A stretch of DNA of 64,000 nucleotides from assembly GCA_003053925.1 (NCBI GenBank), contig QBKD01000001.1, positions 744,001 through 808,000 on the forward strand, in the 5' to 3' direction. Origin of the DNA: Microbacteriaceae bacterium MWH-Ta3. GTDB taxonomy: Bacteria; Actinomycetota; Actinomycetes; Actinomycetales; Microbacteriaceae. Position numbers and translations under genes: made by a program. The number at the start of each line of letters is the position of its first letter. Position 1 is the first letter of the stretch. The notes under the pieces were generated by a model that worked only from the letters and a program-made list of their open reading frames with translations, did no database searches and was not told the origin of the DNA. Shown piece after piece: positions 19,418 through 45,216 of this stretch.

Positions 19418-19507
19418 CTAGTCGACGCAATTTGGCCTCCACGCCGATGTCGAGGAATTAGCTAGCATGAGGGAAATGTCTGTTCTATTCGCGACGAAGG
19501 ATTTTCC

Positions 19508-20440
19508 ATGAAGCTCGGCAAATTGCGCACGGTTGATATCCGCTCCGTCTGGCCCGACGAGGCACGCGACTTCACACCATGGCTATTGGCCAACACCGAT
19601 GAGCTGTCGCAGGCATTGGGGCTTGACCTGGATCTTCACCGCGCAGAACATGCCGTGGGCAACTACTCGCTCGACCTTATTGGCACAATTGCCGAATCAG
19701 AAGAGGTTGTGATTGTCGAGAATCAGTTGGAACAAAGCGACCACCGGCATCTTGGCCAGTTGATGACCTATGCGGGTGGAACCAATGCCAGCTACATCAT
19801 CTGGATATCGACGAACTTCCGCGAAGAACATTTAAGCGCCGTGCGGTGGTTAAACGACGGAACCGTGGAAGGAATTCGGTTTTTCGCCGTCGAAGTTTCT
19901 GCGGTGCAGATCGATGATTCCATCGCCGCACCACACTTTACGGTCGTTGCCCAGCCCAATGAATGGCAAAAACAAACGCGTGCGAAAGCTAATGACGCAA
20001 TTATTGGCGAACGCGGCCAACAACAGAAGGAATTCTGGAACCTTTACCTTCAGCGCATTCGCGAAGCACATCCGGACTGGACCAATGCGAAGAATGGCCA
20101 GCCTCAAAATTGGTACGCGTTGTCAACGGGAATCAGTAGCATCAGCTTCACGTCGTTCTTCAGCAAAGGCGGCGAACTTGTCGCTCGACTTGCCTTTACT
20201 TCGTCAGATGGCGAACTTAATCAAGATCGTTTCGAACGTTTTGAGAACCGCCGCCAAAATATCGAGGCACTATTCGGCCATGAGTTGGAGTGGGATGATT
20301 CGCGCAAACACTGCAGCATTTCTGTCCGCACTCCCGGCGCCTTCGGCGATAGTGCCGATTGGGAACAGCAGATTCGGTGGTTCATTATGCAACACGAACG
20401 ATTCCGTGAAGCCTTCGGGCAGGTGCGTGCGCAACTGTAG
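19508..20440 (+). CDS. DUF4268 protein with PD-(D/E)XK nuclease-like N-terminus
   Basis: 310-aa protein. The N-terminal half (residues 40-120) contains NYSLDLIGTI, EEVVIVENQLEQSDHRHLGQ and LMTYAGG, the layout of a restriction-endonuclease-like fold with Asp and Glu separated by a beta hairpin. The C-terminal half (about 180-310) is the DUF4268 type. Such proteins often sit in defence or mobile regions. The gene looks less G+C-rich than the chromosomal genes before it and is followed directly by a tRNA-like 3' end and the integrase element, so it is probably acquired DNA. No partner gene on this strand; role unproven. Confidence 0.75.
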   Translation: MKLGKLRTVDIRSVWPDEARDFTPWLLANTDELSQALGLDLDLHRAEHAVGNYSLDLIGTIAESEEVVIVENQLEQSDHRHLGQLMTYAGGTNASYIIWISTNFREEHLSAVRWLNDGTVEGIRFFAVEVSAVQIDDSIAAPHFTVVAQPNEWQKQTRAKANDAIIGERGQQQKEFWNLYLQRIREAHPDWTNAKNGQPQNWYALSTGISSISFTSFFSKGGELVARLAFTSSDGELNQDRFERFENRRQNIEALFGHELEWDDSRKHCSISVRTPGAFGDSADWEQQIRWFIMQHERFREAFGQVRAQL

Positions 20441-20450
20441 CTCCACGTAA

Positions 20451-20494
20451 CTGCGGATCAGAAGGTAGGGGGGTTCGAATCCTCTATTCTCCGC
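20451..20494 (+). other. Partial tRNA-like 3' end (possible integration target)
   Basis: The stretch contains ATCAGAAGG, GGTTCGAATCC (a standard T-arm with TTCGAAT loop) and the acceptor-like CTATTCTCCG with a G at the discriminator position. I cannot find a matching 5' acceptor (GGAGAAT) or D-arm upstream, and the 5' T-stem pairs poorly, so this is a fragment or decayed tRNA. tRNA 3' ends are classic targets of tyrosine recombinases, and the integrase gene follows 160 bp later. Confidence 0.5.
20486..20494 (+). repeat. Candidate attL core
   Basis: ATTCTCCGC, at the acceptor end of the tRNA-like fragment. The same 9 bp recur at 31054-31062; counting flanks, 13 of 17 positions agree. Confidence 0.42.
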
Positions 20495-20499
20495 GGCCG

Positions 20500-20523
20500 C
20501 GATTTGGACAGAAATCCAAATCG
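20500..20523. repeat. Perfect hairpin next to attL
   Basis: CGATTTGGA (20500-20508) and TCCAAATCG (20515-20523) form a 9-bp stem with a CAGAAA loop. It may be part of the recombination site or a weak terminator. Confidence 0.5.
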
Positions 20524-20528
20524 AAGCA

Positions 20529-20568
20529 AAACGCCTAAACCCCTTTACTCATTGGGGTTTAGGCGTTT
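20529..20568. terminator. Bidirectional hairpin terminator
   Basis: A perfect 15-bp stem, AAACGCCTAAACCCC (20529-20543) with its complement (20554-20568), around a 10-nt loop, ending in TTT followed by TCTC. It insulates the integrase from upstream transcription. Confidence 0.75.
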
Positions 20569-20603
20569 CTCATTCTCCCTGTCCAAACTCTCAAAGTGCA
20601 GCC

Positions 20604-20637
20604 TTGCTCAGTTTGCTTAGTTTCTTGCTACTTATTC
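20604..20637 (+). repeat. Direct repeats, putative integrase arm sites
   Basis: TTGCTCAGT (20604-20612), TTGCTTAGT (20613-20621) and TTGCTACTT (20625-20633, extending to TTGCTACTTATTC at 20637) are three near-tandem copies. The last recurs exactly near the other end of the element. They overlap the integrase promoter, so binding could also autoregulate it. Confidence 0.55.
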
Positions 20638-20652
20638 CCTATAGTGAGATGT

Positions 20653-22086
20653 ATGGGGCGAAGAACGAATGATGAACTTTGGGCAGCAAAAACAGCGCCA
20701 AAGAAACGGGGTGAGGGTTCGGTCTTCCTCGTCCGACCAAAGGACGGAACAGAGCCGTTTTATCGAGCGACCAGAACAATCAGTTGGGATGCGAAGGCGC
20801 GCAGGTCGAAACAGATAACTGGCTCAGGGCAAACTCCAGAGGAAGCGATCCAACGTCGCGAACTGAACTACCTTCGCCACCTTGCCAAGTTGGGCATCGC
20901 TCCTGAGCAAGATGTGCCCCTGAAGAAGGGCGAAAAAGAGCACTTCTTCCAGGATGTCGCCGACGAATGGTTCCGCTGGAAGAAAAGCCTGGACGAAGAG
21001 AGCAAGGGGATTGCTCCCTCCACAGCAAAGCAATACGAAACTTTGATCCGGCTCTACATCCATGATTCAAGATTGGGCAGAATGCCCATCAGAAGCATCA
21101 CAAGGGTAGACGTGAGGGACTTCTTCTCGGACTTGAAGCAACTGCAGCGTGACGGTCTCGTAAAAGACGATTTTGGAAAAGTAGTTGGACGCCAGCAAGT
21201 GCCAAAACTCGGACTCAGCAACAGGCGAGCGATCTACGGCATAGTCTCCATGATTTTCAAATACTCTATGGTCGAAAAGGAGTACATTTTCGCCAACCCC
21301 GCCTACGGCCTGGAGCCACCGCCAAAGCCCAAGGTCAAAAAGGATGCTGAGGTTCTCGAGAAGAAGAAGTATGTCGCGAAGAATCTTGCACTCTATCTGA
21401 AAGGCCGTCCAGACGAGTTGCGCTGGATTTTCGCGATGGCTACTGGATGCCGACAATCGGAAGTTTTGGGACTCACTTGGGATTGCTTCAGTTACACACT
21501 TGAGGCACAAACTGATACTCCCAGAGTCATAATCAAGCAACAACTACAGCCTGATTTTGTGGGCAAACAAAAGAAGACCTGGGTCATTGACGACAGAACG
21601 AAATCTGAAAATAGCCATCGAATCATTCCGCTAGACAAAAGGCTCGTCGAACTCATCCGTGAGCATAAGAAACAACAAAATGAGTGGAAGAAATCTGAGA
21701 AGTGGGATCCCATGCCTGGCAAAGGGATGAACAACCTGGTTTTCACTCTGCCCAATGGACACCCAATCACCCACCAACGTGACAACAAGCGCTGGAGGCA
21801 ACTTCTTCAGGAGTTCAATCTTCCTTACATTCCCCTACATTCACTGCGGCACTTTGCGGCGTCAATGATGATTGCGAACGGAGCAAACATCAACGCAGTC
21901 TCCTCGATTCTGGGGCACGGCTCCGTGAGCATCACGCGAGCCGTTTACATTCACGATGACTTGCGCCCGATGGTCGCACCTATGAAAGGCTTGCTCGACA
22001 CACTCTTCCGAGATAGGGACCGGGGATTTATTGAGGAGTGGGACGAAAATGGCCCACTCCCCAAAGATCAAAAACCCGAAAGTTAG
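20653..22086 (+). CDS. Tyrosine recombinase (phage-type integrase)
   Basis: 477-aa site-specific recombinase. Residues about 20-75 form an arm-binding-like N-terminal domain, about 95-215 the SAM-like core-binding domain, and the catalytic domain follows with Arg in MATGCRQSEVLGLTW, HSLRHFAASMM (His-x-x-Arg) and the final Tyr in SITRAVYIHDD. The start at 20653 is chosen because TATAGT (20640-20645) is 7 nt upstream (leaderless) and earlier sequence does not resemble the family. It integrates and excises the element. It overlaps the convergent downstream gene at the stop codons. Confidence 0.93.
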   Translation: MGRRTNDELWAAKTAPKKRGEGSVFLVRPKDGTEPFYRATRTISWDAKARRSKQITGSGQTPEEAIQRRELNYLRHLAKLGIAPEQDVPLKKGEKEHFFQDVADEWFRWKKSLDEESKGIAPSTAKQYETLIRLYIHDSRLGRMPIRSITRVDVRDFFSDLKQLQRDGLVKDDFGKVVGRQQVPKLGLSNRRAIYGIVSMIFKYSMVEKEYIFANPAYGLEPPPKPKVKKDAEVLEKKKYVAKNLALYLKGRPDELRWIFAMATGCRQSEVLGLTWDCFSYTLEAQTDTPRVIIKQQLQPDFVGKQKKTWVIDDRTKSENSHRIIPLDKRLVELIREHKKQQNEWKKSEKWDPMPGKGMNNLVFTLPNGHPITHQRDNKRWRQLLQEFNLPYIPLHSLRHFAASMMIANGANINAVSSILGHGSVSITRAVYIHDDLRPMVAPMKGLLDTLFRDRDRGFIEEWDENGPLPKDQKPES

Positions 22087-22535
22087 AACGGGTTTTCGGC
22101 TTCACTTTCCTCGACAGCCCTTTGCGTCAAAGACCGCTCTTGAGATTTTCGATACCTGACTTTTGCCGCGTTCGAGGCGTGCTCAAATCGCTCTCGCTTG
22201 GCCGCCAGGGAACTTGCGACACCAACTAGCCAACCGTCCCTGCCACCTCTAGACTCTGGGGCCCAAAGCCCTACCGAGCACAAGGCCTCAGCGGCAGCCA
22301 ACTTTGACTCTTTAGTTCCCGGGATTAGAGATCGAAGCACTTCATTTCGACTAACCCAATCTTCATCTTTTGAGAGACACGCTGCTAAAGCCGCAACCAT
22401 GAGGCCAGCCGCAGCCAGCGTTAGATTCTCGTCTTCGATATCGGCAAAGGCCTCGTCGCGTCCGAAATCAAGTGAGATTGGAACCCATCCAACGGTTGGG
22501 GTATTCAACTCTCTAACAACAGGTGATTCAGTCAT
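22083..22535 (-). CDS. Phage-type winged-helix-like protein, 150 aa
   Basis: 150-aa protein. The core LTLAAAGLMVAALAACLSKD, then VSRNEVLRSLIPG and AAAEALCSVGLWAPE, then a basic end KRERFEHASNAAKVRYRKS, resembles the small helical domain seen in phage replisome-organiser-like and related hypothetical proteins. This is a by-eye resemblance. The start at 22535 has GGAG upstream. A perfect 12-bp inverted repeat lies 11 nt before the start and may be its operator. Convergent with the integrase, overlapping at the stop codons. Probably an element maintenance or replication function. Confidence 0.55.
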   Translation of the reverse strand: MTESPVVRELNTPTVGWVPISLDFGRDEAFADIEDENLTLAAAGLMVAALAACLSKDEDWVSRNEVLRSLIPGTKESKLAAAEALCSVGLWAPESRGGRDGWLVGVASSLAAKRERFEHASNAAKVRYRKSQERSLTQRAVEESEAENPF

Positions 22536-22545
22536 TTTCCACTCC

Positions 22546-22573
22546 ATTTCTGTCCACTTCTGTGGACAGAAAT
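22546..22573. promoter_or_regulatory. 12-bp inverted repeat before the 150-aa gene
   Basis: ATTTCTGTCCAC (22546-22557) and GTGGACAGAAAT (22562-22573) with a TTCT loop. It ends next to the SD sequence of the gene starting at 22535, so it could be a repressor site or an mRNA hairpin that affects ribosome access. Confidence 0.6.
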
Positions 22574-22785
22574 GCCATCGGCTAGGCAAACGTTTCGGTC
22601 GTCAGCCCTCATCGAGAGCAATGCTCGAGCAGATCGCGGGCGCTGCCAACAAACAAACAAATAAACCAAATGAAGAAATCTAGGGATAAATCACGGAAGG
22701 AAATCAAGATTTGTTCGCTCATTTCTTCGAAATCGAGCGATGACTAAAAACCCTGACGATAAAAGTTTGAGCGGAAGGAAGTCAG

Positions 22786-22829
22786 CCCTGAAAACCCTGA
22801 CCGGCTTTAGCCTGTCAGGGTTTTCAGGG
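22786..22829. terminator. 16-bp stem hairpin, likely terminator
   Basis: CCCTGAAAACCCTGAC (22786-22801) pairs perfectly with its complement at 22814-22829; the loop contains a further GGC/GCC pair. It stands 24 nt beyond the stop of the minus-strand 174-aa gene and would end its transcript. Confidence 0.75.
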
Positions 22830-22853
22830 TGACGGTGGGATATGAAATAACCC

Positions 22854-23378
22854 CTAAATGGCTAAAAGCCATGACATCCGGCCCTCTAGGCGCTCTCCGA
22901 TAGCGGATCTCCACGCACGATCGTCAAGGCTTGACAGATGAGATTCTTTTGTGCGACAGAAAAAGAAGCCTGTGTTGAGTGGTATGGCACAAATCTCGCG
23001 CTCTCGCTCTAACTCGATAACGAAAGTTTCCAACTCTTGAAGATGGATATCAGTCGCTAGGTATTTGTAGAACTTGACCAGATCCACATGGATAGGCAGT
23101 AAATCCAGCCCAAGGGTGGATCGACGACCCCAGATGCCGAGTCCTCTTTTGGTAATCGCATCAATCAGGCTTTCTCCCGCATCTAGAGTGAGGGATTTAG
23201 CGATTTCCACGTAGTGTTCTCGCGAGATTGAATGGTGTTCTAGCAGGCCCTTGTGAACGGCGTAAATACTGTCCCACTCGAGAGCCGCGACCACTTGTCT
23301 TTGCTCGACTGAAATGTCTGTCTCGTGTGGTTCGGGATGAATAAGGGCGAGTCTACCTGACGTGTTGATTGTTGGCAT
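22854..23378 (-). CDS. Hypothetical protein of the integrative element, 174 aa
   Basis: Not recognised. TAAAGGAG lies 4 nt before the ATG, so the start is well supported. The protein is mixed alpha/beta with no signal peptide or membrane span; segments include VAALEWDSIYAVHKGLLEHH, HVDLVKFYKYLATDIHLQEL and a C-terminal LEGRMSWLLAI. Terminator hairpin downstream at 22786-22829. It is transcribed away from the hsd genes and may serve element regulation or defence; nothing in the sequence decides this. Confidence 0.65.
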   Translation of the reverse strand: MPTINTSGRLALIHPEPHETDISVEQRQVVAALEWDSIYAVHKGLLEHHSISREHYVEIAKSLTLDAGESLIDAITKRGLGIWGRRSTLGLDLLPIHVDLVKFYKYLATDIHLQELETFVIELEREREICAIPLNTGFFFCRTKESHLSSLDDRAWRSAIGERLEGRMSWLLAI

Positions 23379-23468
23379 TTTGCTCCTTTATAAAGGAGGC
23401 AGTTTGCTTGGGTTTCAGGCCGAGGCTTCGGCTTTACGGGTTCTGCTTTCTGTCTCAGTTGGTCTGTG

Positions 23469-23789
23469 ATGGTTCATTTATACAAAAGGCCACTGACATT
23501 TATTCGTGCCGATATCCAGCCCATGAGCAAACTATTCAGACTTTTAGCGGGGCTCTTCTTCAGAGGAGTAAAACCTGAGGAACTCCTCCCTGACCGTTTT
23601 CCGGGGAAGAAACCTCCAACGGCTGCTCCCTCGATACCCAACCGTCCAAAAGTGGATTCTTCCGCATCTGGGAATCAGCAGATTCTTAGGCACTACAAGT
23701 CTTTTCGTCGTCACTACCCCAATGGCTACAAAATCAAGCGTGACGGGCGAGATTGGCTCAACGATGTCGACTCAACAGACAATGGATGA
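23469..23789 (+). CDS. Possible small protein, 106 aa
   Basis: Open frame with a basic product (MVHLYKRPLTFIRADIQPMS at the start, FRRHYPNGYKIKRDGRDWL near the end). There is no convincing SD at the first ATG, and an internal ATG at 23523 also lacks one. No family resemblance. Lys/Arg and aromatic residues in the last third look protein-like, hence the listing, but it may be chance. Confidence 0.3.
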   Translation: MVHLYKRPLTFIRADIQPMSKLFRLLAGLFFRGVKPEELLPDRFPGKKPPTAAPSIPNRPKVDSSASGNQQILRHYKSFRRHYPNGYKIKRDGRDWLNDVDSTDNG

Positions 23790-23825
23790 AAAAGATGACG
23801 GTAGGGCAACCTAAACTTGAAACGC

Positions 23826-23840
23826 GTCCAGATTCTGGAC
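23826..23840. promoter_or_regulatory. Inverted repeat in the hsdM leader
   Basis: GTCCAG, ATT, CTGGAC: perfect 6-bp arms. It begins 8 nt after a TAAACT -10-like box (23812-23817), so it would cover the transcription start of hsdMSR. Possible operator delaying restriction after entry into a new host; inferred from place only. Confidence 0.42.
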
Positions 23841-23911
23841 ATGGGGGTGGGTATGTCTGTTGCATCTATGGAGATGCCCGCTCAAAATCCGGTTGTTATT
23901 TAGGAGTTTGA

Positions 23912-25525
23912 GTGGCACAGAAAAAGAAGCCGACAGGGGCTCAAGGTCTCGAGGCATCACTGTGGGATGCGGCTGACCGGCTACGTTCCAACATGGACGC
24001 TGCTGAATACAAACATGTGGTGCTGGGTCTCATCTTCCTCAAGTATGTTTCCGATGTATTTGGAAAGCGCCAAGACGAACTTTCGAAACTCGTTCAAGAT
24101 CCAACCACTGAGTACTACATGCCCACGGATGCAGCCCGCAAATCAATCCTCGAGTCTCGAGATGAGTACACCTCCGAGGGTGTTTTCTGGGTGCCCGAAG
24201 GCCACCGTTGGGATGACCTAAGAAAAGCCGCAAAGCAATCGGACATTGGTTCTCGAATCGACGCCGCCATGGACGCAATCGAAAAGGAAAACCCAACCCT
24301 AAAAGGCGTTCTGCCGAAGAACTACGCACGCCGTGAACTCACCCCTGCCACTCTCGGTGGTCTTATTGACACGTTCTCTCGCGAGGACCTCACGGCGGCC
24401 GAGCACGAGAACCTCGATGTTCTCGGTCGAGTATTCGAGTACATGGTCAGCCAGTTCGCCTCCGCTGAAGGAAAACTGGGCGGCGAGTTCTACACACCCC
24501 GCTCAGTCGTGAAACTCATGGTCGACATGCTTGAACCGTTCAACGGTCGCGTTTACGACCCTGCCTGCGGTTCAGGCGGCATGTTCGTGCAAGCCGACAA
24601 GTTCATCAAGGCCCACGGTGGTGTTCGCAACGACATCTCGGTATTTGGCCAGGAGATGAACCCGACCACTTGGCGTTTAGCGAAGATGAACCTGGCCCTG
24701 CGCGGCATCGACGCGAACCTCGGAGCGCAGTGGGGCGACTCATTCGGCAACGATCAGCACCCAGACCTGCGCGCTGACTTCATCATCGCCAACCCGCCGT
24801 TCAACATCAAGGAGTGGGGCGGGGAGACCCTCCGTGACGATCCGCGCTGGCAGTACGGCACGCCGCCCGCTGGCAACGCGAACTACGCGTGGATCCAGCA
24901 CATGCTCCATCACCTGTCGCCCACAGGAACCATGGCAACCGTCCTCGCCAACGGTTCACTCTCATCTAAGACATCGGGTGAAGGTGAAATCCGCAAGAAC
25001 CTCGTCGAAGCCGACCTTGTCGAGTGCATCGTCGCAATGCCGGACAAGTTGTTTTACACAACGGGGATTCCGGTCTCGATCTGGTTCCTTACCAAGGACA
25101 AGACCGCTCAGGGAGTGAAGACCGAGCGACCACAGCGTGACCGTCGCGGCGAGATCCTCTTCATCGATGCTCGCCAGTTGGGTTCTATGGTCACCCGCAC
25201 TGTGCGTGAACTCTCTGATGAGGAGATTGCGAGGATCGCCGACACCTACAACGCATGGCGAGGTGAGCCAGACCTCGAGCCCTACGCAGATGTCCCCGGC
25301 TTCTGTGCTTCGGTCAAGTTGGAGGACATTCGCACACACGAACACGTTCTGACACCTGGGCGCTTTGTTGGCTCTGAAGATGTTGCAGGGGACGACGAGC
25401 CCCTCGATGCAAAGGTGAGCCGACTAAATGCGTCGATCAAAGCGGGATTCCGCTTGAGGAGCAACCTTCAAGCCGAGGTCGAAAGAGCCCTAGATGCGCT
25501 GGTTGTCGAGGGCTTCGATGCGTGA
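23912..25525 (+). CDS. hsdM: Type I restriction-modification DNA methyltransferase subunit
   Basis: 537-aa N6-adenine methyltransferase subunit. The N-terminal helical HsdM domain ([20 protein letters not shown]) precedes the catalytic domain with [11 protein letters not shown] (AdoMet motif, about residue 215) and [11 protein letters not shown] (catalytic NPPF, about residue 292). Start GTG at 23912 with TAGGAG upstream. The last 8 nt overlap hsdS (ATGCGTGA), a tight coupling. With HsdS it methylates the recognition site and protects the host. Confidence 0.96.
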
Positions 25526-26672
25526 GATTCCACTCGGGGATCTACTCGAAACTGTCATCGATCACCGTGGAAAGACGCCCAAGAAACTCGGCGGTGACTT
25601 CACGGCATCGGGAGTGCCCGTCGTCTCGGCGATACACATCAAGAATGGTGTAATCGAGTGGTCTGAGCGTGAGCGGTACGTGTCACCTCAGATGTTCGCA
25701 AAGTGGATGCCGGTACGGTTGAAGAAGGGTGATGTGCTGCTGACTTCCGAGGCTCCACTTGGTGAGACTGCGCTTGTCCCCAGTAACGACGACTTGGTCC
25801 TAAGTCAGAGATTGTTTGCTCTCCGCGGCAAGCCTGACCTTCTAGACAATGGCTATCTGAGGTATTTTCTTGCCTCTTCAGTGGGTCAAGAGCGGCTCAA
25901 TGAGCGATCGACGGGGACCACTGTCGTCGGAATCCGCCAAGCGGAACTTTTGAAGGTCCTTGTTCCGGTTCCCTCGCTTGATGAGCAGCGTCGTATTGCG
26001 GGGGTCCTGGGTGCTTTGGATGACCTCATCGACGTGAACCGTGCACTCGCAGGCGATTGTGAACGTCTGGCTCGGTTGTTGGCTTCAACTGCTTCTGCCA
26101 CCACCACACTGTCCTCGTTCACGACTTGGGGAGGATTGTCAACGGTCAAGCCCGCCGGCACTGTCGACCACTACTCGCTGCCGGCATTTGACGATGAGCA
26201 GACCCCTGAGCGACTTGATGGCTCCTTGATCAAGTCGAACAAGCAGCAGATTTCTCAGCCGTGTGTGCTGGTGGCGAGATTGAACCCCCATATTCCGCGA
26301 GTGTGGATGGTCTACCCGAACACCGCGGTCTCCAGCCTCGCTTCGACTGAGTTTGTGCCGATCTGTGCTGCAGGTGTGCCGAATGAGGTTGTCTACGCGG
26401 TCTGCTCGGCACCCACCTACTTGGAACAGATGAATGGCCTCGTCACGGGAACCACCGGCAGTCATCAGCGTGTCGACAAGGACGCGCTGACAAGCGTTGA
26501 GGTGCCCGACGTAAGAACCCTTCCGGCAGCGAATCTGGAGGCAATAGCGCTCCTTGTGAAACAGGCTCATGCCCTACGAGTTGAGATCCGTGAACTCTCG
26601 AGTACCCGCGACGAACTCCTCCCGCTTCTGATGTCTGGTCGTATGCGCGTGACCGAGGAGGTCGCGGCGTGA
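25518..26672 (+). CDS. hsdS: Type I restriction-modification specificity subunit
   Basis: 384-aa HsdS with two target-recognition domains. TRD1 spans about residues 1-145 and ends with a conserved helical spacer ([20 protein letters not shown]); TRD2 spans about 190-345 and is followed by a second helix ([20 protein letters not shown]). The [11 protein letters not shown] end is typical. The recognition sequence cannot be read from the protein. Start at 25518 inside the end of hsdM; it overlaps hsdR by 4 nt. Confidence 0.93.
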
Positions 26673-29600
26673 GCATGATCCCGACTGAGTCTGACCTCGA
26701 GTTCCTTGTTCTGGAGTTCTTGAAATCCGAGGGATGGGGTGTCGTCTTCGGCCCGGACATTGCTCCGGGTGAGCCGGGCGCGGAGCGCACCGATTACCGC
26801 GACGTGGTGCTTGTGGGTCGTCTTCGGACGGCTGTGGCGGAGTTGAATCCGTTCTTGCCGCAGGATGCGGTTGAGGATGCGGTGAAGACCGTGCTGCGCG
26901 CCGAGTCTCAAGTAGTGATGACGGAGAACTGGCGCGCCTACCAACTCCTGACTGAGGGTGTCCCGGTCCAGTACCGGGACGAATCGGGAGCAATCAAGGA
27001 CGTGCGTGCACGTCTGGTCGACTGGAACGAGTCGGCGAACAATAACCTGGTGGCAATAAATCAGTTCACGATCAAGGGCAAGTCAGAACGCCGTCCAGAT
27101 GTACTGCTGTTCGTGAATGGCTTGCCATTGGTGCTATTCGAGTTGAAGCGCGCTGGGGCAAAGAATGCGACTCTCCGCGGTGCGTTCAACCAGATCGAGA
27201 CCTACCGCAATGAGATCCCTGACGTGTTCACTTGGAATCAGGTCACCATCATTTCCGACGGGGTAAACGCCCGCGCGGGAACTTTCACAGCCGGGTGGGA
27301 GCACTATGCCCCTTGGAAGACCATAGACGGAACGAACCTGCCTAAGGGTGTCTCGGAGATTGAAGTCCTCACAAAGGGAATGTTCACCCCGGACCGGCTG
27401 CTGGATCTGGTCCGTAACTTCACGGTTTACACCGGTGACGGTGCGTCCATGGTGAAGAAGACCGCAAAGTACCACCAGTACTGGGCAGTGAACAAGGCAA
27501 TCGACTCCACGGTCGAGGCTGTTGGGGGCGATGGCCGCGCAGGTGTCGTCTGGCACACTCAAGGCTCCGGCAAATCCTTGGAGATGGAGTGGTATGCCGG
27601 CAAGATCATGCGCCACCTGGCCATGGAAAATCCGACAGTCGTGGTACTGACTGATCGAAATGACTTAGATGACCAGTTGTTTGACGACACATTCGCCGCC
27701 TCCAAACCTGGAGCACCACTACCAGAGTCTCCTGTTCAGGCAGACTCACGAAGTCATCTAAAAGAACTGCTGAACCGAAGGCAGTCCGGTGGAATCATTT
27801 TCTCCACTCTTCAAAAGTTTGGGCTGTCAAAAGAGGAGAAGGAAGCGGGCTCATCGTTCCCAACTCTTTCGCAGCGCTCAAACATCGTTGTGATGGTGGA
27901 TGAGGCTCATCGTTCGAACTATGACTTCATTGATGGATTTGCCCGCCACCTCCGCGATGGATTGCCAAACGCAACTTACATCGGATTTACTGGGACGCCG
28001 ATTGAAGCAAAAGACAAGTCAACTCGTCAGGTCTTTGGCGAATACATCGACGTATACGATTTGACCCAGGCCGTTGCCGACGGAGCCACGGTCAAGGTTT
28101 TGTATGAACCAAGGCTTGCCAAGGTTGAACTGCCTCGTGAGGCTCTCGGTGCTTTGGATGAAGAGTTTGCCAACGCTACATCTGGATCTGAGGAAGAGGC
28201 CAGGGAACGACTCAAAACTCGCTGGGCGCAAGTGGAGGCGATTGTTGGTTCAGATAAACGAATCGCGGAACTTGCTAAGGACATCGTGTCCCATTGGGAA
28301 GCACGACGCGACGCAATGTCTGGTAAGGCAATAATCGTGGCCATGTCGCGAAGAATCGCGGTCGCTCTTTACGACGAGATCACCAGACTTCGTCCAACAT
28401 GGGCTAGCGATGACGACCAGACTGGCAAAATCAAAGTTGTCATGACTGGCTCCGCTTCTGACGATGCAAGTTTCCAACCGCACATCCGATCTAAAGAGGC
28501 GCTTAGAAATCTGAAGAGCCGCGCGAAAGATCCAAACGACGAACTTGAACTTGTGATTGTTCGCGACATGTGGCTGACCGGATTCGATTCACCATCAATG
28601 CACACGATGTATGTCGATAAGCCAATGAAGGGTGCCAACCTGATGCAGGCTATCGCTCGCGTCAATCGAACCTTCAAGGACAAACCCGCTGGTCTCGTTG
28701 TTGATTATTTAGGTATCGCCGAAGACCTCAAGAGCGCGCTGTCGGATTACACCGCGCGAGACCAAGAGAACCAGGAACTCGGACAGGACCTTCGTGTTCA
28801 GGCCATCCCTGCGATGGTATCTAAGCATGAAGTTGTTGGTTCGATTCTTCACGGACATGAATGGCGTAAGGGGCTTGCTGGTGGCGGGCCAAAGGCGTTC
28901 ATCGACACTTTGTCAGGCACCGTTGAATATCTGCTGTCGAAGCACGTAGACGCCCCTTCGGAACAGGCTTGCACCAAGGAGAATCCATGCCTAAAGCATC
29001 GATTCATGGCTCAAACCAGAGATTTGATCGCCTTGTACGTTATGTGCGTCCCGAGTGACGAGGCTATGAAAATACGCGACGACGTAGCGTTTTTCGAGGC
29101 TGTGCGTTCACAAATCTCGAAAATCGAAGGTGTTGACCGAGAGGGTGGAGACCCGGGTGCAGCCCTGGACACGGCCATCCGACAGATTGTCTCTGAAGCC
29201 ATGACAGGCAGCGGGGTCATTGACATCTTCGCTGAAGCAGGGCTCGCAAAACCTGACATCAGTTTGATTGACGAAGACTTTGTCAAGAACTTCAAAAAGG
29301 CGTCCAACCCTAACCTTCAGTTGGAAATGCTCAAGAGGATTTTGGCAGCGGAGATCTCAAAGGTTGGCAAACGAAACATCGTCACCGGCCGCGCTTTCTC
29401 TGAAATGTTGGAGCGTTCGTTGCTTAGGTATCAGAACAGAACTATTGATGCGGCACAAGTAGTGGCGGAACTTGTGGAACTAGCCCAGTCACTCAAATCA
29501 GAGACTGATCGCGGAGTAAAACTGGGTCTCAATGAAGACGAACTTGCTTTCTACGATGCAATCAGAACCAATGATTCTGCCGTACTTGAAATCGGCGATG

Positions 29601-29812
29601 ACACCCTCAAGAAGATTGCGCACGAACTACTTGACATCGTTAGACGCGACGCGAAAACAGACTGGAATGTCAAAGAGCAAGTTCGGGCAAAACTTAGAGC
29701 AACCATCAAGCGTTTACTTCTCAAGTACGGCTACCCACCAGATCAAGAACCAAATGCGACACAGTTGGTTTTGGAGCAAGCGGAAGTAATCGCCACGGAC
29801 GAAGCAGCCTAG
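26669..29812 (+). CDS. hsdR: Type I restriction endonuclease subunit R
   Basis: 1047-aa motor and nuclease subunit. The N-terminal PD-(D/E)XK domain shows RRPDVLLFVNGLPLVLFELK (about residues 140-160); the helicase has Walker A HTQGSGKS (about 292-300), DEAHRS (about 410) and FTGTPIE; the C-terminal helical domain binds the methylase. No frameshift, so the system looks intact. Start GTG at 26669 overlaps hsdS; ATG at 26675 is an alternative. The second half appears less G+C-rich than the first, suggesting a mosaic. Confidence 0.95.
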   Translation: MSMIPTESDLEFLVLEFLKSEGWGVVFGPDIAPGEPGAERTDYRDVVLVGRLRTAVAELNPFLPQDAVEDAVKTVLRAESQVVMTENWRAYQLLTEGVPVQYRDESGAIKDVRARLVDWNESANNNLVAINQFTIKGKSERRPDVLLFVNGLPLVLFELKRAGAKNATLRGAFNQIETYRNEIPDVFTWNQVTIISDGVNARAGTFTAGWEHYAPWKTIDGTNLPKGVSEIEVLTKGMFTPDRLLDLVRNFTVYTGDGASMVKKTAKYHQYWAVNKAIDSTVEAVGGDGRAGVVWHTQGSGKSLEMEWYAGKIMRHLAMENPTVVVLTDRNDLDDQLFDDTFAASKPGAPLPESPVQADSRSHLKELLNRRQSGGIIFSTLQKFGLSKEEKEAGSSFPTLSQRSNIVVMVDEAHRSNYDFIDGFARHLRDGLPNATYIGFTGTPIEAKDKSTRQVFGEYIDVYDLTQAVADGATVKVLYEPRLAKVELPREALGALDEEFANATSGSEEEARERLKTRWAQVEAIVGSDKRIAELAKDIVSHWEARRDAMSGKAIIVAMSRRIAVALYDEITRLRPTWASDDDQTGKIKVVMTGSASDDASFQPHIRSKEALRNLKSRAKDPNDELELVIVRDMWLTGFDSPSMHTMYVDKPMKGANLMQAIARVNRTFKDKPAGLVVDYLGIAEDLKSALSDYTARDQENQELGQDLRVQAIPAMVSKHEVVGSILHGHEWRKGLAGGGPKAFIDTLSGTVEYLLSKHVDAPSEQACTKENPCLKHRFMAQTRDLIALYVMCVPSDEAMKIRDDVAFFEAVRSQISKIEGVDREGGDPGAALDTAIRQIVSEAMTGSGVIDIFAEAGLAKPDISLIDEDFVKNFKKASNPNLQLEMLKRILAAEISKVGKRNIVTGRAFSEMLERSLLRYQNRTIDAAQVVAELVELAQSLKSETDRGVKLGLNEDELAFYDAIRTNDSAVLEIGDDTLKKIAHELLDIVRRDAKTDWNVKEQVRAKLRATIKRLLLKYGYPPDQEPNATQLVLEQAEVIATDEAA

Positions 29813-40439: not shown

Positions 40440-41096
40440 ATGACCGAGCCCACCGTCGTGCCGGCCGGCGCGGAACCGCACGCCGAACAATCCACGCACG
40501 GCGTGGGTCCGTGGGTGGGCGAGTGGCCCACCGGCGACCAGTGGGATCCCGAACTGCTGCGCAACGGTGACACCCGAAATGTCACGGACGCGTATCGGTA
40601 CTGGACGGTCGAGGCGATCGTCGCCGACCTCGACACTCGTCGCCACGAATTCCACGTGGCCATCGAAAACTGGCAGCACGATCTGAACATTGGGTCCATC
40701 GTGCGCACCGCCAACGCATTCCTGGCCGACACCGTGCACATTGTGGGCCGCCGGCGCTGGAATAAACGCGGCGCGATGGTGACCGATCGCTATCAACACG
40801 TGATGCACCACCCCACTATCGAGGACTTCCTGGAATGGTCACGCGCGCACGATCTGGTGGTTGTGGGCGTGGACAATGTCGAGGGATCGGTGCCCGTCGA
40901 AACGACCACCCTTCCCAAGCGTTGTGTGTTGCTGTTTGGCCAAGAAGGTCCGGGGCTGTCGCCCGAAGCCATCGCCGCGTCCGACATGGTCGTGGAAATT
41001 CTGCAGTTTGGTTCCACCCGGTCGTTGAATGCTTCCGCCGCCGCTGCCATCATCATGCACGAATGGATTTCCGAGCACGTCGTACCGCGCGGGTAG
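40440..41096 (+). CDS. TrmH family RNA 2'-O-methyltransferase
   Basis: 218-aa SpoU-type RNA methyltransferase with a trefoil knot. The three motifs are visible: NIGSIVRTANAF, CVLLFGQEGPGLSPEAI and RSLNASAAAAIIMHEW. Substrate could be tRNA or rRNA. It starts 3 nt after the previous gene, so probably one transcript from pyrE. Confidence 0.9.
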   Translation: MTEPTVVPAGAEPHAEQSTHGVGPWVGEWPTGDQWDPELLRNGDTRNVTDAYRYWTVEAIVADLDTRRHEFHVAIENWQHDLNIGSIVRTANAFLADTVHIVGRRRWNKRGAMVTDRYQHVMHHPTIEDFLEWSRAHDLVVVGVDNVEGSVPVETTTLPKRCVLLFGQEGPGLSPEAIAASDMVVEILQFGSTRSLNASAAAAIIMHEWISEHVVPRG

Positions 41097-41135
41097 ACTG
41101 GCACTGTTCATTTTTCGCGTAACAAAGGACCCGTC

Positions 41136-42422
41136 ATGCCCGCCGTTGTGATTGTTGGCGCCCAGTGGGGCGACGAGGGCAAGGGTAAGGCAACCGACCT
41201 CTTGGCCGAACACATCGACTATGTCGTCAAGTTCAACGGCGGCAACAACGCCGGCCACACCGTCGTGATCGGCAATGAAAAGTACGCGCTGCATCTGCTG
41301 CCCTCGGGCATCCTCACCGAGGGCGTGACCCCGGTCATTTCGAACGGCGTGGTCATCGACCTCGAGGTTTTGTTCTACGAGATCGACGCGCTGAATGCCC
41401 GTGGGATCGATACCTCGAAACTTCGAGTCTCGGCCAACGCCCACGTGATCACCGCGTATCACCGCACCATCGACAAGGTCACCGAACGCTTCCTGGGTAA
41501 GCGCCAGATTGGCACGACCGGCCGTGGCATCGGCCCCACCTACGCCGACAAGATCAACCGCGTGGGCATTCGTATTCAGGACATCTTCGACGAAAACATT
41601 CTGCGCCAGAAGGTCGAAGGTGCGCTGGACAGCAAGAACCACCTGCTGGTTAAGATTTACAACCGCCGCGCGATCTTGGTCGAGGAAATTGTGAGCGACC
41701 TGCTGTCGTATGCCGACCGTCTGCGCCCCATGGTGGCCGACACGGCACTGGAATTGCACCAGGCGCTCGAGGCCAACAAGGTCGTGCTGTTCGAGGGTGG
41801 CCAGGCCACGATGCTCGATGTCGACCACGGCACCTACCCCTTCGTCACGTCGTCGAACTCGACCGCAGGCGGTGCGTCGACCGGCTCGGGTATTGGTCCT
41901 GGCGCATTCCAGCGCGTGATTGGAATCGTCAAGGCGTACACGACGCGTGTAGGCGCCGGCCCCTTCCCCACCGAACTTTTCGACGAATCGGGCGAATTCC
42001 TGCGCGCCACGGGCTTCGAGTTCGGCACCACCACGGGCCGCCCCCGCCGCTGTGGCTGGTACGACGCCCCCATCGCACGCTACTCGGCGCGAATCAACGG
42101 TCTGACCGATTTCGTGCTGACGAAACTCGATGTCCTGACGGGTCTGAAGGAAATCCCCGTGTGCGTGGCCTACGAGGTTGACGGCGTACGTGTCGAGGAA
42201 GTTCCCGTCTCGCAGAGCGACTTCCACCACGCGAAGCCCATCTATGAAACCTTCCCCGGATGGGACGAAGACATCACGGGCGCACGCGAATTCACCGATC
42301 TTCCGAAGAACGCACAGGACTACATCCTGGCCGTGGAAAAGATTTCGGGCGCACGCATTTCGGCGATCGGAGTCGGCCCCGCGCGCGACGCGATTATCCA
42401 GCGCTACTCGTTGCTGGACTAA
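41136..42422 (+). CDS. purA: Adenylosuccinate synthetase
   Basis: 428-aa GTP-dependent enzyme converting IMP and aspartate to adenylosuccinate. N-terminal [18 protein letters not shown] is the P-loop signature, NAGHTVV and [16 protein letters not shown] follow. Full length. TAGACT (41094-41099) overlaps the previous stop and may be a -10; AAAGGA is the SD. Confidence 0.97.
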
Positions 42423-42430
42423 ATCCAAGA

Positions 42431-42451
42431 TTTGTCCAAAGAACGGACAAA
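42431..42451. terminator. Hairpin after purA
   Basis: TTTGTCC (42431-42437) pairs with GGACAAA (42445-42451) around 7 nt, 9 nt after the purA stop. Short stem, moderate support. Confidence 0.5.
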
Positions 42452-42478
42452 GCCAGTACCCCCGCAATTCACGCGCTT

Positions 42479-42504
42479 TACACTGAAAAGGTAGTCAAAC
42501 TACC
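42479..42504 (+). promoter_or_regulatory. Promoter with 5'-terminal mRNA hairpin for the acidic protein cluster
   Basis: TACACT (42479-42484) is a -10-like box; the predicted start near 42491 coincides with a perfect hairpin GGTAGT-CAA-ACTACC (42490-42504), directly followed by the SD GAGGAG. A hairpin at the very 5' end often stabilises mRNA, which would fit high expression. Confidence 0.5.
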
Positions 42505-42511
42505 GAGGAGC

Positions 42512-43357
42512 ATGAATCCCGTGATCAAGATGTTCAGCATTGGGGCCGTAGTGGCCGTGAGTATTGCACTGGCTGGCGCACCCGCATTTGCGGCAGATGC
42601 CGATGTCGTCGAAGAGGTCATTGTGACCGATGTCCTCGACGACCTCGAGGTTGTGGCCGGGGACGAGCTTATCGACGACCTGCTGGAAGACATCGATAGC
42701 GATGTACTCGATGACGAACTGGTCGACGACGTAACGGACGTGCTGGATGACAGCGGCGACCCCACCGAAGTCATCGACGAGGACACCACGGAAAACCTCG
42801 ACGAGCAGTCGGCGGTGTGGGCCGAGTTTGGTGATGTCTGGCACGTGGCCTTCGAGGCCATCAAGTCGGATTTCACGGCGTGCCGCGAGGCAAACCCCAC
42901 CCAGTCCGCACGTGAGTGTGCCGCGGCCTTCACCAGCACCCTGCATGTCGCTCACGCTCAGGCTATGGTCTCCTGGGCTCAGGAACAACTGGCGCTCGTC
43001 GCCACCCTGCCGGAAGACCAGCAGGCTGCTGCCGCAGCCGAGATTCAGGCGGCGATTGCTCGTGCCGAGACGCGCCTTGCCAAGGTAATCGAGCGTGAGG
43101 CGGACGCCGCCGCGCGGGCGCAGGAGAAGCTCGAGGAACAGGCAGCCAAGGCTGAAGAGCACGCGAATAACGGCAAGGGCAATTCGGGATCGAACGGATC
43201 CGACGATGACTCCACTGATACGACCGACTCCACCGACTCCACGGACACCACCGACGATTCCGACACATCGAACACAGACGACTCGAACGGCTCGAAGCCG
43301 GACAAGCCAGCCAAGCCCGAGAAGCCGGCAAAGCCCGAGAAGGGCGAGAGGGACTAA
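42512..43357 (+). CDS. Secreted acidic coiled-coil protein, 281 aa
   Basis: Exported protein with a Sec signal peptide (residues 1-28, ending APAFA-ADAD). Residues 30-100 are very rich in Asp/Glu with hydrophobic spacing (LDDLEVVAGDELIDDLLEDI). A WAEFGDVW motif is at 103-110. A helical region with two cysteines follows (FTACREANPTQSARECAAAF), then a long Ala/Glu coiled coil (about 170-225) and a Ser/Thr/Asp tail ending in KPEKPAKPEKGE-type repeats. SD GAGGAG. No known family. First gene of a three-gene secreted cluster. Confidence 0.75.
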   Translation: MNPVIKMFSIGAVVAVSIALAGAPAFAADADVVEEVIVTDVLDDLEVVAGDELIDDLLEDIDSDVLDDELVDDVTDVLDDSGDPTEVIDEDTTENLDEQSAVWAEFGDVWHVAFEAIKSDFTACREANPTQSARECAAAFTSTLHVAHAQAMVSWAQEQLALVATLPEDQQAAAAAEIQAAIARAETRLAKVIEREADAAARAQEKLEEQAAKAEEHANNGKGNSGSNGSDDDSTDTTDSTDSTDTTDDSDTSNTDDSNGSKPDKPAKPEKPAKPEKGERD

Positions 43358-43359
43358 TC

Positions 43360-43662
43360 ATGACCACCACGTTTCCCCGCATTGCCGCAATCGCACTGAT
43401 TGCTCTGAGCCTCACCGGTTGTGCGAGCGGCGTTCCCACCGAAACCACCAATGTGATCTCTGGTAACGACATTCTGACCGCCGATCTGTCTGCCGACCTC
43501 ACGGCACGCGGCGTTGTGCTTGCCGCCGTGCTGCTTGTGGCAGGCGATATCGAGGTTGCTGTTTCCAACGGAACCGTGACACCCGCCGAAGTCGATGCCG
43601 CGCAGAAGGCAATCGATGAGGGCACTCTGGACCTGTGGCGCCAAAGGGCAGAGGCGGAATAA
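43360..43662 (+). CDS. Small putative lipoprotein, 100 aa
   Basis: Signal peptide with lipobox LSLTGC (Cys at residue 21), so probably a membrane-anchored lipoprotein. The mature part is about 80 residues: a polar linker, a helix GVVLAAVLLVAGDIEVAV and an EF-hand-unlike helix pair VTPAEVDAAQKAIDEGTLDL. It starts 2 nt after the stop of the acidic protein and its stop overlaps the next start. Unknown function, presumably acting with its neighbours. Confidence 0.7.
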   Translation: MTTTFPRIAAIALIALSLTGCASGVPTETTNVISGNDILTADLSADLTARGVVLAAVLLVAGDIEVAVSNGTVTPAEVDAAQKAIDEGTLDLWRQRAEAE

Positions 43663-44216
43663 TGATGAACCTCCGAGCAATCGCCGTTGCAACCACGCTG
43701 GCGCTTGCGCTGGGTGTGCAACCCGCGTCGGCGTCAATCACGGATGCACACCGCGTGATCGTTCAGACGGTGCTGGCGAATCTGGGTGTCGAGGCCTCGC
43801 CCGAACTTATTGACGAGATCCTCGCCGAACTGGACCCTACGCTCTACGATCCCAACCTCGTGTCCGCGGTCGATTCCGCGCTGGCAAATGGCGATGATAT
43901 CGCCGCGTTGATCACCGGCGCAGCGGCAACGCACTTTGCAACGCAGGTGGATTTGTGGGCGAAGTACGGTGCCGACTGGGCGGCCGAAGCTGCAGAAGAT
44001 GCTGACGACGACGCCGATGATGACGACACCGACGAAGCCGATGACGATGCTGACGACACGGATGACGATTCCGACACAGACGACGACAGCGATGACGTCG
44101 ATACGGATGACGCCGACGACGTAGACGATGACGACACCGACGAAGCCGATGACGACGAGTCCGACGATGAGGACGAAGCCGAATCTGACGACGACGAGGA
44201 CGAAGAAGACGACTAG
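43662..44216 (+). CDS. Secreted protein with very acidic tail, 184 aa
   Basis: Signal peptide (1-25, ending PASASI). A small helical domain (26-110) contains LIDEILAELDPTLYDPNLV and WAKYGADW at 99-106, similar to WAEFGDVW in the first protein of the cluster. Residues 111-184 are almost only Asp, Glu, Ala, Thr and Ser. The coding DNA has a 29-bp direct repeat. Start ATG at 43662 forms TAATG with the preceding stop; 43665 is an alternative. Could bind calcium or other cations at the surface; no family known. Confidence 0.72.
   Translation: MMNLRAIAVATTLALALGVQPASASITDAHRVIVQTVLANLGVEASPELIDEILAELDPTLYDPNLVSAVDSALANGDDIAALITGAAATHFATQVDLWAKYGADWAAEAAEDADDDADDDDTDEADDDADDTDDDSDTDDDSDDVDTDDADDVDDDDTDEADDDESDDEDEAESDDDEDEEDD
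44019..44155 (+). repeat. 29-bp direct repeat in the acidic tail
   Basis: Identical 29-bp copies at 44019-44047 and 44127-44155, encoding DDDTDEADD within the Asp-rich tail. They suggest tail growth by duplication and allow length change by slippage. Confidence 0.8.
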
Positions 44217-44246
44217 TCCACGGCCCGCCTCGGTAGGCTAATCATC

Positions 44247-44546
44247 ATGGACGACGCAACACAGAACCAACTCGCATCGCTGCGCAAGAGCATCGACAAC
44301 ATTGATTCGGCGTTGGTTCACATGCTGGCAGAGCGTTTCAAATGCACCCAGCAGGTGGGAGTCCTGAAGGCCACCTCGGGGCTTCCCGCGTCGGACAAGA
44401 CCCGTGAATCCGAACAAATTGAGCGGCTGCGTAGCCTCGCCCTCGATGCCAATTTGGATCCGGCGTTCGCCGAGAAATTCCTGAACTTCATCGTTGCCGA
44501 GGTCATTCGCCATCACGAACAGATCGCGGGCGATCACGGCGGTTAG
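44247..44546 (+). CDS. Chorismate mutase (AroQ type)
   Basis: 99-aa all-helical chorismate mutase, making prephenate for Phe and Tyr. N-terminal LRKSIDNIDSALVHMLAERF, then KATSGLPASDKTRESEQIER, match the AroQ class with its conserved Arg and Lys. TAGGCT (44234-44239) is 7 nt before the ATG with no SD: leaderless. Stand-alone domain. Confidence 0.88.
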   Translation: MDDATQNQLASLRKSIDNIDSALVHMLAERFKCTQQVGVLKATSGLPASDKTRESEQIERLRSLALDANLDPAFAEKFLNFIVAEVIRHHEQIAGDHGG

Positions 44547-44586
44547 CGATGACCGAATCTGACGCCGCTCGGCTTCCGTCGGGCGC

Positions 44587-45216
44587 CTAGCGCTGCTCGT
44601 CGCGTAAAGCGAGTGCGGCATCGCGCGCGGCGATCAGCCGGTGCGCCACATCAATACACCGGTCAATCGTGGGCTGGTGGCGCTTGACGGTCAAATACTT
44701 GGGGCCGGGCCACGCGGGCACAAATTCCTTATTGCGCTGACGGCGCAATTGCCATGCGAACAGGCACTCCTCGGCGCCCGTTACAAACAGCTGCCATTGA
44801 ACCTGGCGGTGATACGCCGGGTTGACCTCGTCCCACGATGCCCAATCCTTACCGGTGGTCTTGACCTCGACAATCGTTCCGTGATCGGGCGACAGCCCAT
44901 CGGGGGTCGCCATCATCCACGAGGCCTCGGCCGATGCAATGAGCCAGTCGTTGCCTTCAATATCGAATCGTGTTGCCAGCTTGTCGATGATGATGGGTTC
45001 CTGCTGGCGCCCGAACGCCATGTAGGCATTGTCGGCGATGGGAGTGGGGTCAATCATCTGGCCTACGGTCTCGCGAAAACCCGCGGAATCGAACGCACGG
45101 CCCACCATCGTGGCAGTGACACCTGTGGCGCGCACACGCAACCACTCGTCGCGGTCGGCGCTCTGCACAAGAAACCTACTGGGCTCAATCACGGCGAAAC
45201 CACCATCCTTCTGCAC
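44587..45216 (-). CDS. YqaJ-type viral recombinase/exonuclease family protein
   Basis: 209-aa PD-(D/E)XK protein of the YqaJ/lambda-exonuclease type. FGRQQEPIIIDKL carries the first Glu, MATPDGLSPDHGTIVEVKTT the catalytic D...E-x-K, and YHRQVQWQLFVTGAEECLFA the following helix. The start codon is GTG at 45216 without a clear SD; a downstream GTG could be used. No phage genes surround it, so it is either a domesticated phage gene or a host DNA-processing enzyme. Confidence 0.78.
   Translation of the reverse strand: MQKDGGFAVIEPSRFLVQSADRDEWLRVRATGVTATMVGRAFDSAGFRETVGQMIDPTPIADNAYMAFGRQQEPIIIDKLATRFDIEGNDWLIASAEASWMMATPDGLSPDHGTIVEVKTTGKDWASWDEVNPAYHRQVQWQLFVTGAEECLFAWQLRRQRNKEFVPAWPGPKYLTVKRHQPTIDRCIDVAHRLIAARDAALALRDEQR

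Follow-up and report, generated by a model that had tools for sequence, protein, structure and literature searches.

A conserved gene pair for exported proteins and a putative two-component regulon marked by tandem 11-bp repeats in Microbacteriaceae

We analyzed a stretch of 64,000 nucleotides (the window) from Microbacteriaceae bacterium MWH-Ta3 (contig QBKD01000001.1, positions 744,001 to 808,000; the genome is 1.56 Mb), and in particular three adjacent genes on its forward strand, which we call A, B, and C. Gene A (42512..43357, with its ATG start at 42512) encodes a secreted protein of 281 amino acids, with a helical core and a low-complexity tail; by eye, the signal peptide ends at AFA-ADA. 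Gene B (43360..43662) encodes a lipoprotein of 100 amino acids, with a lipobox that we read by eye as LTG-C21 and a conserved helical domain. Gene C (43662..44216) encodes a protein of 184 amino acids with a signal peptide (also by eye), an N-terminal domain in common with A, and an Asp-rich tail. There are 2 nt between A and B, and B and C overlap at TAATG. A sequence-only reading of this DNA had described two exported proteins with a small lipoprotein in between, all translationally linked, and had noticed a shared W motif and LID(D/E)-type helices. The gene set is confirmed, as are these details: the W motif is WAEFGDVW in A and WAKYGADW in C, and both ELIDD and ELIDE are present.

That reading had also suggested a common origin for A and C, and the alignments bear this out. 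With the tails removed, the cores of A and C give a local alignment score of 106, while the maximum in 2000 shuffles was 60 (z = 13.4), and a search of the genome with A recovers C at E = 9e-8. A and C share a homologous N-terminal domain beyond compositional bias.

No known family seemed to fit A, B, or C from the sequence alone, and our searches agree. Nothing in Pfam or NCBIfam scored above the cut-off for the window's A, B, or C, and when we scanned 9 A, 20 B, and 13 C proteins against Pfam, no convincing match turned up. Against PDB sequences, a profile of B had 0 matches, and the best match for the profile of A was ZapB (E = 0.0085). AlphaFold2 predicts an all-helical core with long helices for A (12 sequences; mean pLDDT 81.0, pTM 0.55) and a helical protein with a low-confidence N-terminus for B (23 sequences; mean pLDDT 74.8, pTM 0.57). 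Foldseek found no match to either model in the PDB at E ≤ 0.001. VIA-align gave generic helical matches only for A (best Z of 9.2) and, for B, one weak match (Z of 3.1) among just 3 chains compared, which is a weak test for a known fold. Rfam had 0 matches over 41000-45000. In the open-licence literature (titles and the starts of abstracts), we found no description of A, B, C, or the 11-bp repeats discussed below, which is not proof of absence. Within the searches made, the view that A-B(-C) is apparently undescribed is upheld.

Using a profile, we found B in 17 of 299 genomes of the family, from 8 of 81 genera, and 16 of these 17 have an A- or C-type gene next to B. The exception, G073, which accounts for one of the 8 genera, is a marginal match (E = 5.8e-4) in a phage-like region, and we disregarded it. 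Full-length A lies ahead of B in Microcella, Yonghaparkia, Aurantimicrobium, Terrimesophilobacter, Cryobacterium sp. BB307, and several MAGs (metagenome-assembled genomes). At 21 of the 25 junctions that we measured, the two genes overlap (by 1 or 4 nt in 20 cases), and at the other 4 the genes are 1 to 18 nt apart. A-B also occurs beyond the window's class, within the Actinomycetota (L070, L071, and L074): G392 and G450, both phylum-level genomes, have it, the latter with two pairs, as does the named Actinomycetota contig L068. We checked the out-of-class copies within a set of 356 sequences: the B copies all reach at least E = 1.5e-13 against a profile of B, and the A copies reach E = 1.6e-5 to 7.6e-5 against a profile of A, for which the best decoy has 0.13. 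Across 16 sequences of A, the invariant residues are W103, W110, F121, C124, and C136, so that the two tryptophans form W-x6-W. B has 13 invariant columns across 20 sequences, and its W73 and R76 (numbered in the mature protein) are part of a conserved face. Because the pairing is regular, the genes are coupled, and both products are exported, A and B probably work as partners, perhaps in direct contact.

Conservation looks different for the trio. The gene upstream of A (41136..42422, forward strand) is one that we take to be purA, encoding adenylosuccinate synthetase, from recognition of its sequence rather than a family search; as a neighbor it is conserved in several genera. We read the loci of 12 other members of the genus, and there B directly follows purA and is followed in turn by C, or by the start of C at a contig end; A is absent from this site. 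The complete A-B-C trio was seen in the window's genome only. Thus, where the sequence-only reading had looked to a conserved three-gene order, the coupled order of the pairs A-B and B-C is kept, but we dropped the three-gene unit as a conserved entity because it was seen in one genome only. The conserved A-B gene pair is the durable finding, and the trio is local.

These distributions also bear on a deflationary explanation, in which the proteins are fast-evolving secreted fillers that hitch-hike between purA and the chorismate mutase-like gene downstream. In favor of this, the tails are of low complexity and vary freely, and the loci that we read at this site in sister species lack A. But the genera g93 and g7 have A-B with no purA in the ~12 kb that we fetched, and filler would not be expected to keep the invariant columns of B. 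Because B is conserved at unlinked loci, this explanation was already disfavored, and we consider it very improbable.

Some further matches and sequences near A or B deserve mention. Further candidate matches are in G554 (E = 9.7e-4) and in G651 and G685 (E of ~1e-4). We rejected a match in G674, which overlaps an apparent solute-binding lipoprotein, and low-complexity matches of A in G017 and G058. In G020, which is counted among the 16 genomes with a pair, B is split over two frames (L042, G020:C1 near 2139.4-2139.7 kb), which reflects a genuine frameshift or else an error in the assembly. In the Microcella/Yonghaparkia group, all 5 of 5 leaders upstream of A (L055, L059, L060, L061, and L062) contain a hairpin-forming sequence, CCCGTTCGCGGG, which differs from the 5' hairpin in the window.

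Just upstream of the window's operon are three tandem 11-bp direct repeats (42420..42452, forward strand; TAAATCCAAGA TTTGTCCAAAG AACGGACAAAG), the first of which overlaps the stop codon of purA. The consensus of the repeats is TTTGTCCAAGA, and we presume that they are a binding site for a response regulator of the OmpR/PhoB type. Three tandem repeats are found upstream of the operon in all 13 of the 13 genus members that we read; in G007, we confirmed that B comes after the site. The genus has 15 genomes; for the other two (G012 and G013, which are 75 and 68% complete), the region was not fetched and a pattern search found none. The presumed -10 hexamer, TACACT (42479..42484, forward strand), lies 26 nt past the third repeat. 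TAnnnT is present at this same offset in 13/13 members, and 11/13 fit TA[CG]A[CG]T. We also considered if the repeats could be a terminator for purA and dropped this idea, as they recur at two other loci (the gene D and a regulator gene, below).

Just past the hexamer is a hairpin (42490..42504, forward strand; GGUAGUCAAACUACC / GGTAGTCAAACTACC) at the presumed 5' end of the mRNA. Such a 5'-terminal hairpin had been taken as a sign of strong expression. It is present, and folding from the presumed 5' end gives z = -1.75, with 11 of 200 shuffles equally stable; if the fold begins 2 nt inside the stem, the signal vanishes (z = 0.05). It was not seen in the leaders of the sister species, so it is not conserved in the genus.

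To search for the repeats elsewhere, we used two models: R1, a sequence-only model from 12 operon sites, which we ran on six whole genomes, and R2, from 10 operon sites and 4 sites at D, which we ran on 9 genomes. Within the window, the operon's repeats are the only match to R2 at E ≤ 5 (E = 1.2e-5), though this site is in the training set. In the window's genome (G000), R1 has three matches at E ≤ 1, one at the operon and the other two at the promoters of an OmpR-type regulator and of D. R2 has four matches at E ≤ 0.5, all at these same three loci, and two of them are training sites.

The regulator gene and the adjoining kinase gene are at G000:C1:675.3-677.4 kb, with the regulator at 675.3-676.0 kb. 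The regulator contains PF00072 (Response_reg) and PF00486 (Trans_reg_C), and the kinase contains PF00672 (HAMP), PF00512 (HisKA), and PF02518 (HATPase_c), all above the cut-offs; the kinase's sensor region matches sCache_3_2 just under the cut-off. Among the NCBIfam regulator types (MtrA, PhoB, CseB, CreB, and others), CreB is the best match, with 197 bits against a cut-off of 273, and the regulator is below the cut-off for all 25 of the 81 matches that were listed. D (G000:C1:130380-131000, reverse strand; L078/L134) is downstream of rplT and encodes an exported protein with an acidic tail. D matches the profile of A (E = 3.3e-5), though one-to-one comparisons with A and with C show no significant similarity. 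Of the 15 genomes of the genus, 13 have a match to the kinase and 12 have a match to D. In G010, which has no match to D, such repeats precede, at the rplT-linked locus (L180), the gene for a shorter exported protein with an acidic tail.

To quantify the repeats, we scored 200 bp upstream of each gene with a unit matrix that was trained on operon sites only. As a null, we used 40,000 random 200-bp windows from a pool comprising the window and the regulator's locus (L111) with the sites removed. Most of this pool is coding DNA, and for a second comparison we used upstream regions of other genera. The best two-unit score in the null was 10.2. Regulator promoters score 22.5 to 29.0 (13/13 genomes) and D promoters score 15.4 to 25.8 (11/11; one more D locus, L144, was left out since no start was resolved). 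The three-unit scores for D are also far above the null. At the D promoters, TAnnnT is present at the 26-nt offset in 11/11 cases, as compared to 2/297 at other offsets. It is very likely that these genes form a regulon, with shared sites at three loci and a fixed promoter spacing at two of them.

Which protein recognizes the repeats is less certain. We infer that it is the adjoining regulator, and this is likely. But the OmpR/PhoB family as a whole typically has tandem 11-bp sites, and a site in a regulator's own promoter does not prove autoregulation: another OmpR-type regulator, such as one for phosphate or the cell wall, might bind the repeats, and the two-component system would then be one more target. 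We consider this unlikely because the site stays with the regulator's promoter, both in the genus and in three other genera (scores of 23.0 to 27.4; null maximum of 7.6). Also, in the Yonghaparkia genome G108, the regulator's promoter is the sole match to R2 at E ≤ 0.5. The one paralogous regulator that we examined lacks the repeats (score of -11.6). And genome-wide matches in G000 are at the three loci only, albeit from a search in which phosphate genes were not sought as such.

We noticed repeats near two other types of genes. In two genomes, G010 (L125) and G004 (L089), a DUF4349 lipoprotein is near tandem-repeat matches, and it is a possible further member of the regulon; the copy in G010 has a Pfam match, and the one in G004 is similar by appearance. 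In another genus, a two-unit repeat is upstream of an exported protein with an apparent C-terminal membrane anchor (L173, G144:C2).

The regulator's promoter faces a divergent operon (L111, G000:C1:670500-682500). This operon encodes E, which is exported and acid-tailed; F, which is exported and rich in Ala and Ser; ApbE; and a ferric-reductase-like membrane protein (PF01794) with a Fer2 part and an NAD-binding part that is under the cut-off. Among the neighboring proteins that we scanned, none matched an FMN-binding domain.

The tails of the proteins had been described as Asp-rich in one and as Asp/Thr/Ser plus Lys-Pro-Glu-rich in the other, and this is correct: C's tail is rich in Asp, and A's has an Asp/Ser/Thr stretch and then Lys-Pro-Glu. 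In the window's proteins, the last 60 residues have a net charge of -45 for C and -9 for A. Strong acidity is general for C: its tails range from -14 to -45 (11/11 measured, of 13 C proteins). Furthermore, all 10 of 10 complete C proteins from sister species have a D-x-[DN]-G-D-G (DxDGDG-type) loop at one position of the alignment. These features make it plausible that C binds cations.

Putting these results together, we propose that an autoregulated OmpR-type system drives the expression of exported acidic proteins, and that A and B are a secreted protein and its lipoprotein partner. A signal would reach the kinase, with its extracytoplasmic Cache-like domain, and the regulator would bind the three 11-bp repeats, which are next to the -35 region on its upstream side. 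This would activate the TAnnnT promoter and yield a single mRNA for A, B, and C. A would be exported by Sec, with an extended helical fold and probably one disulfide (C124-C136). B would receive its lipid and sit at the membrane's outer face; as the regular partner of A, it would most likely be A's anchor or receptor. C would be a shortened A-type protein that turned acidic: an exported and probably cation-binding polypeptide. The same regulator would drive D, and possibly also E, which is divergent from and beside the regulator's gene. In this way, the regulon would respond to an external signal with anionic protein that coats or buffers the cell surface. We give this joint reading a probability of about 0.5, and no more, because we infer its last steps. 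In particular, that binding cations is the purpose of the acidic proteins is a tentative idea, with somewhat less than even odds. A more elaborate version is doubtful: A-B would be an undescribed two-protein export module, from more than one class of Actinomycetota, that was captured here into an Asp-rich sponge regulon that buffers Ca2+, Mg2+, or Fe3+. A would bear a disulfide, B would be a dedicated receptor, and there might be flavin-based electron export beside the sensor.

A number of observations count against the joint reading. First, A-type tails are not generally acidic: their net charge varies from -13 to +7 (14 measured), and many are rich in Gly, Asn, Lys, or Pro. So the label of an acidic cluster, which the sequence-only reading used for all three genes, holds for C but not for A, and we dropped acidic tails as a hallmark of A. 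The idea of cation binding fits C better than A because C's tails are acidic and most of A's are not, and because of the loop in the sister C proteins; for A, it is weakly supported. Second, even for C, the DxDGDG-type loop is absent from the window's protein and from two C proteins of genus g13. The suggestion of Ca2+ binding thus suits the sister proteins, but the window's own C lacks the loop. The loop and the very acidic tails of C, D, and E could instead point to an EF-hand-like, Ca2+-responsive surface system, in which C and D bind Ca2+ and control adhesion between cells or to surfaces. Since the loop is absent not just from the window's C but from the 11 D proteins that we read (some of them partial), and since just 1 of 13 C proteins has a match to EF-hand, and a weak one (E = 0.052), we consider such a system quite improbable.

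Other evidence against the joint reading concerns the regulon. The E-values from R1 in G000 are modest (0.044 for the regulator and 0.056 for D). Across the six genomes, R1 has 22 matches at E ≤ 1, of which 6 are at the operon, 3 at the regulator, 4 at D, and 9 elsewhere, several of these at genes without an evident connection. The regulator's sites are mostly two-unit: in G014, the three-unit score is 3.4, which is inside the null (maximum of 5.3). The three regulator promoters that we checked lack TAnnnT at the 26-nt spacing. Outside the genus, 16 of 17 regions upstream of A-B score 1.4 or less (the 99th percentile of the null is 3.4). The remaining one, from G127, scores 5.0, above that percentile and under the null maximum of 7.6; the sole match in that genome lies upstream of B in reversed orientation and has a weak E of 0.28. 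In G108, A-B has no repeats, though the regulator keeps them. Finally, the genera g80, g93, and g7 carry A-B and have no match to the kinase at E ≤ 1e-40. Therefore, A-B does not need this two-component system. The link between the two looks to be specific to the genus, and the autoregulation looks to be older.

The presence of A-B in genera with no match to the kinase also argues against another explanation, that A-B is an envelope chaperone or a feedback device for the kinase, similar to CpxP, Spy, or ZraP, and has no role with cations; C, D, and E would be spacers, and their acidity would serve solubility. A is indeed predicted to be all-helical, is exported, and in this genus is apparently controlled by a two-component system, and the tails of A are near neutral in most genera. 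But LTXXQ, the Pfam family of CpxP/Spy/ZraP, was not among the matches of the window's A at E ≤ 1, nor among those of 9 A members at E ≤ 0.1. We consider this explanation improbable. What should last from this analysis is the A-B pair, together with the two-component regulon marked by tandem 11-bp repeats; the trio and the hairpin are local.

A and B are two families with no match in Pfam or NCBIfam, and since their genes form a pair that is conserved, tests of their function are possible in named strains, among them Terrimesophilobacter mesophilus DSM 19267, Microcella alkalica, and Aurantimicrobium minutum. Through the tandem repeats, an unassigned two-component system of small-genome actinobacteria gains a defined and testable regulon. 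The repeats also connect acid-tailed exported proteins with one specific sensor and with redox genes that are linked to flavin.

As for the rest of the window, the gene downstream of C (44247..44546, forward strand), which is presumably a chorismate mutase-like gene (recognized from its sequence, not by a family search), is conserved as a neighbor in several genera. The region 19500-29800 has a G+C content of ~50-57%, versus ~61% in its flanks. It includes an ORF (open reading frame) at 20596-22086 and genes at 23912-29812 that we take to be integrase-like and type I restriction-modification-like, again by recognizing the sequences rather than by family searches.

Several known systems resemble parts of this one. 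The metal sponges SilE and PcoE, under the control of SilRS and PcoRS, are likewise exported, mostly disordered, and controlled by OmpR-type regulators. They rely on His and Met instead of Asp and Glu, and we found no sequence relation, so this is an analogy and not membership. CpxP, Spy, and ZraP are similar in being small, exported, all-helical proteins controlled by envelope two-component systems. Unlike them, A has no match to LTXXQ, has a predicted disulfide and a tail, and has the lipoprotein B as its partner.

CutRS from Streptomyces also combines a transmembrane kinase that has an extracytoplasmic sensor with an OmpR-type regulator and exported targets (PMC12802291). The site given there for CutR is TAWATAAA, in contrast to the tandem GTCCAAG/GTCAAAG units with 11-bp spacing that we found, and we rejected the repeats as a CutR site because the motif differs (PMC12802291). 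CutS senses via two cysteines (PMC12802291), whereas our kinase has none before the HAMP domain, and the targets of CutRS differ from those here. The divergent operon can be compared to the MsrQ-like flavinylation clusters, which are described as broadly conserved in Actinobacteria (PMC8238504). Both have ApbE and a PF01794 protein with Fer2 and NAD-binding parts, the latter under the cut-off here; they differ in that our scan of the neighbors had no FMN-binding match and that E and F are in the operon (PMC8238504). Neither "response regulator" nor "lipoprotein" is a term used in the main text of that article (PMC8238504). The regulon itself looks like those of the OmpR/PhoB type: a regulator with receiver and winged-helix domains is encoded beside a transmembrane kinase, and 11-bp direct repeats lie upstream of the genes.

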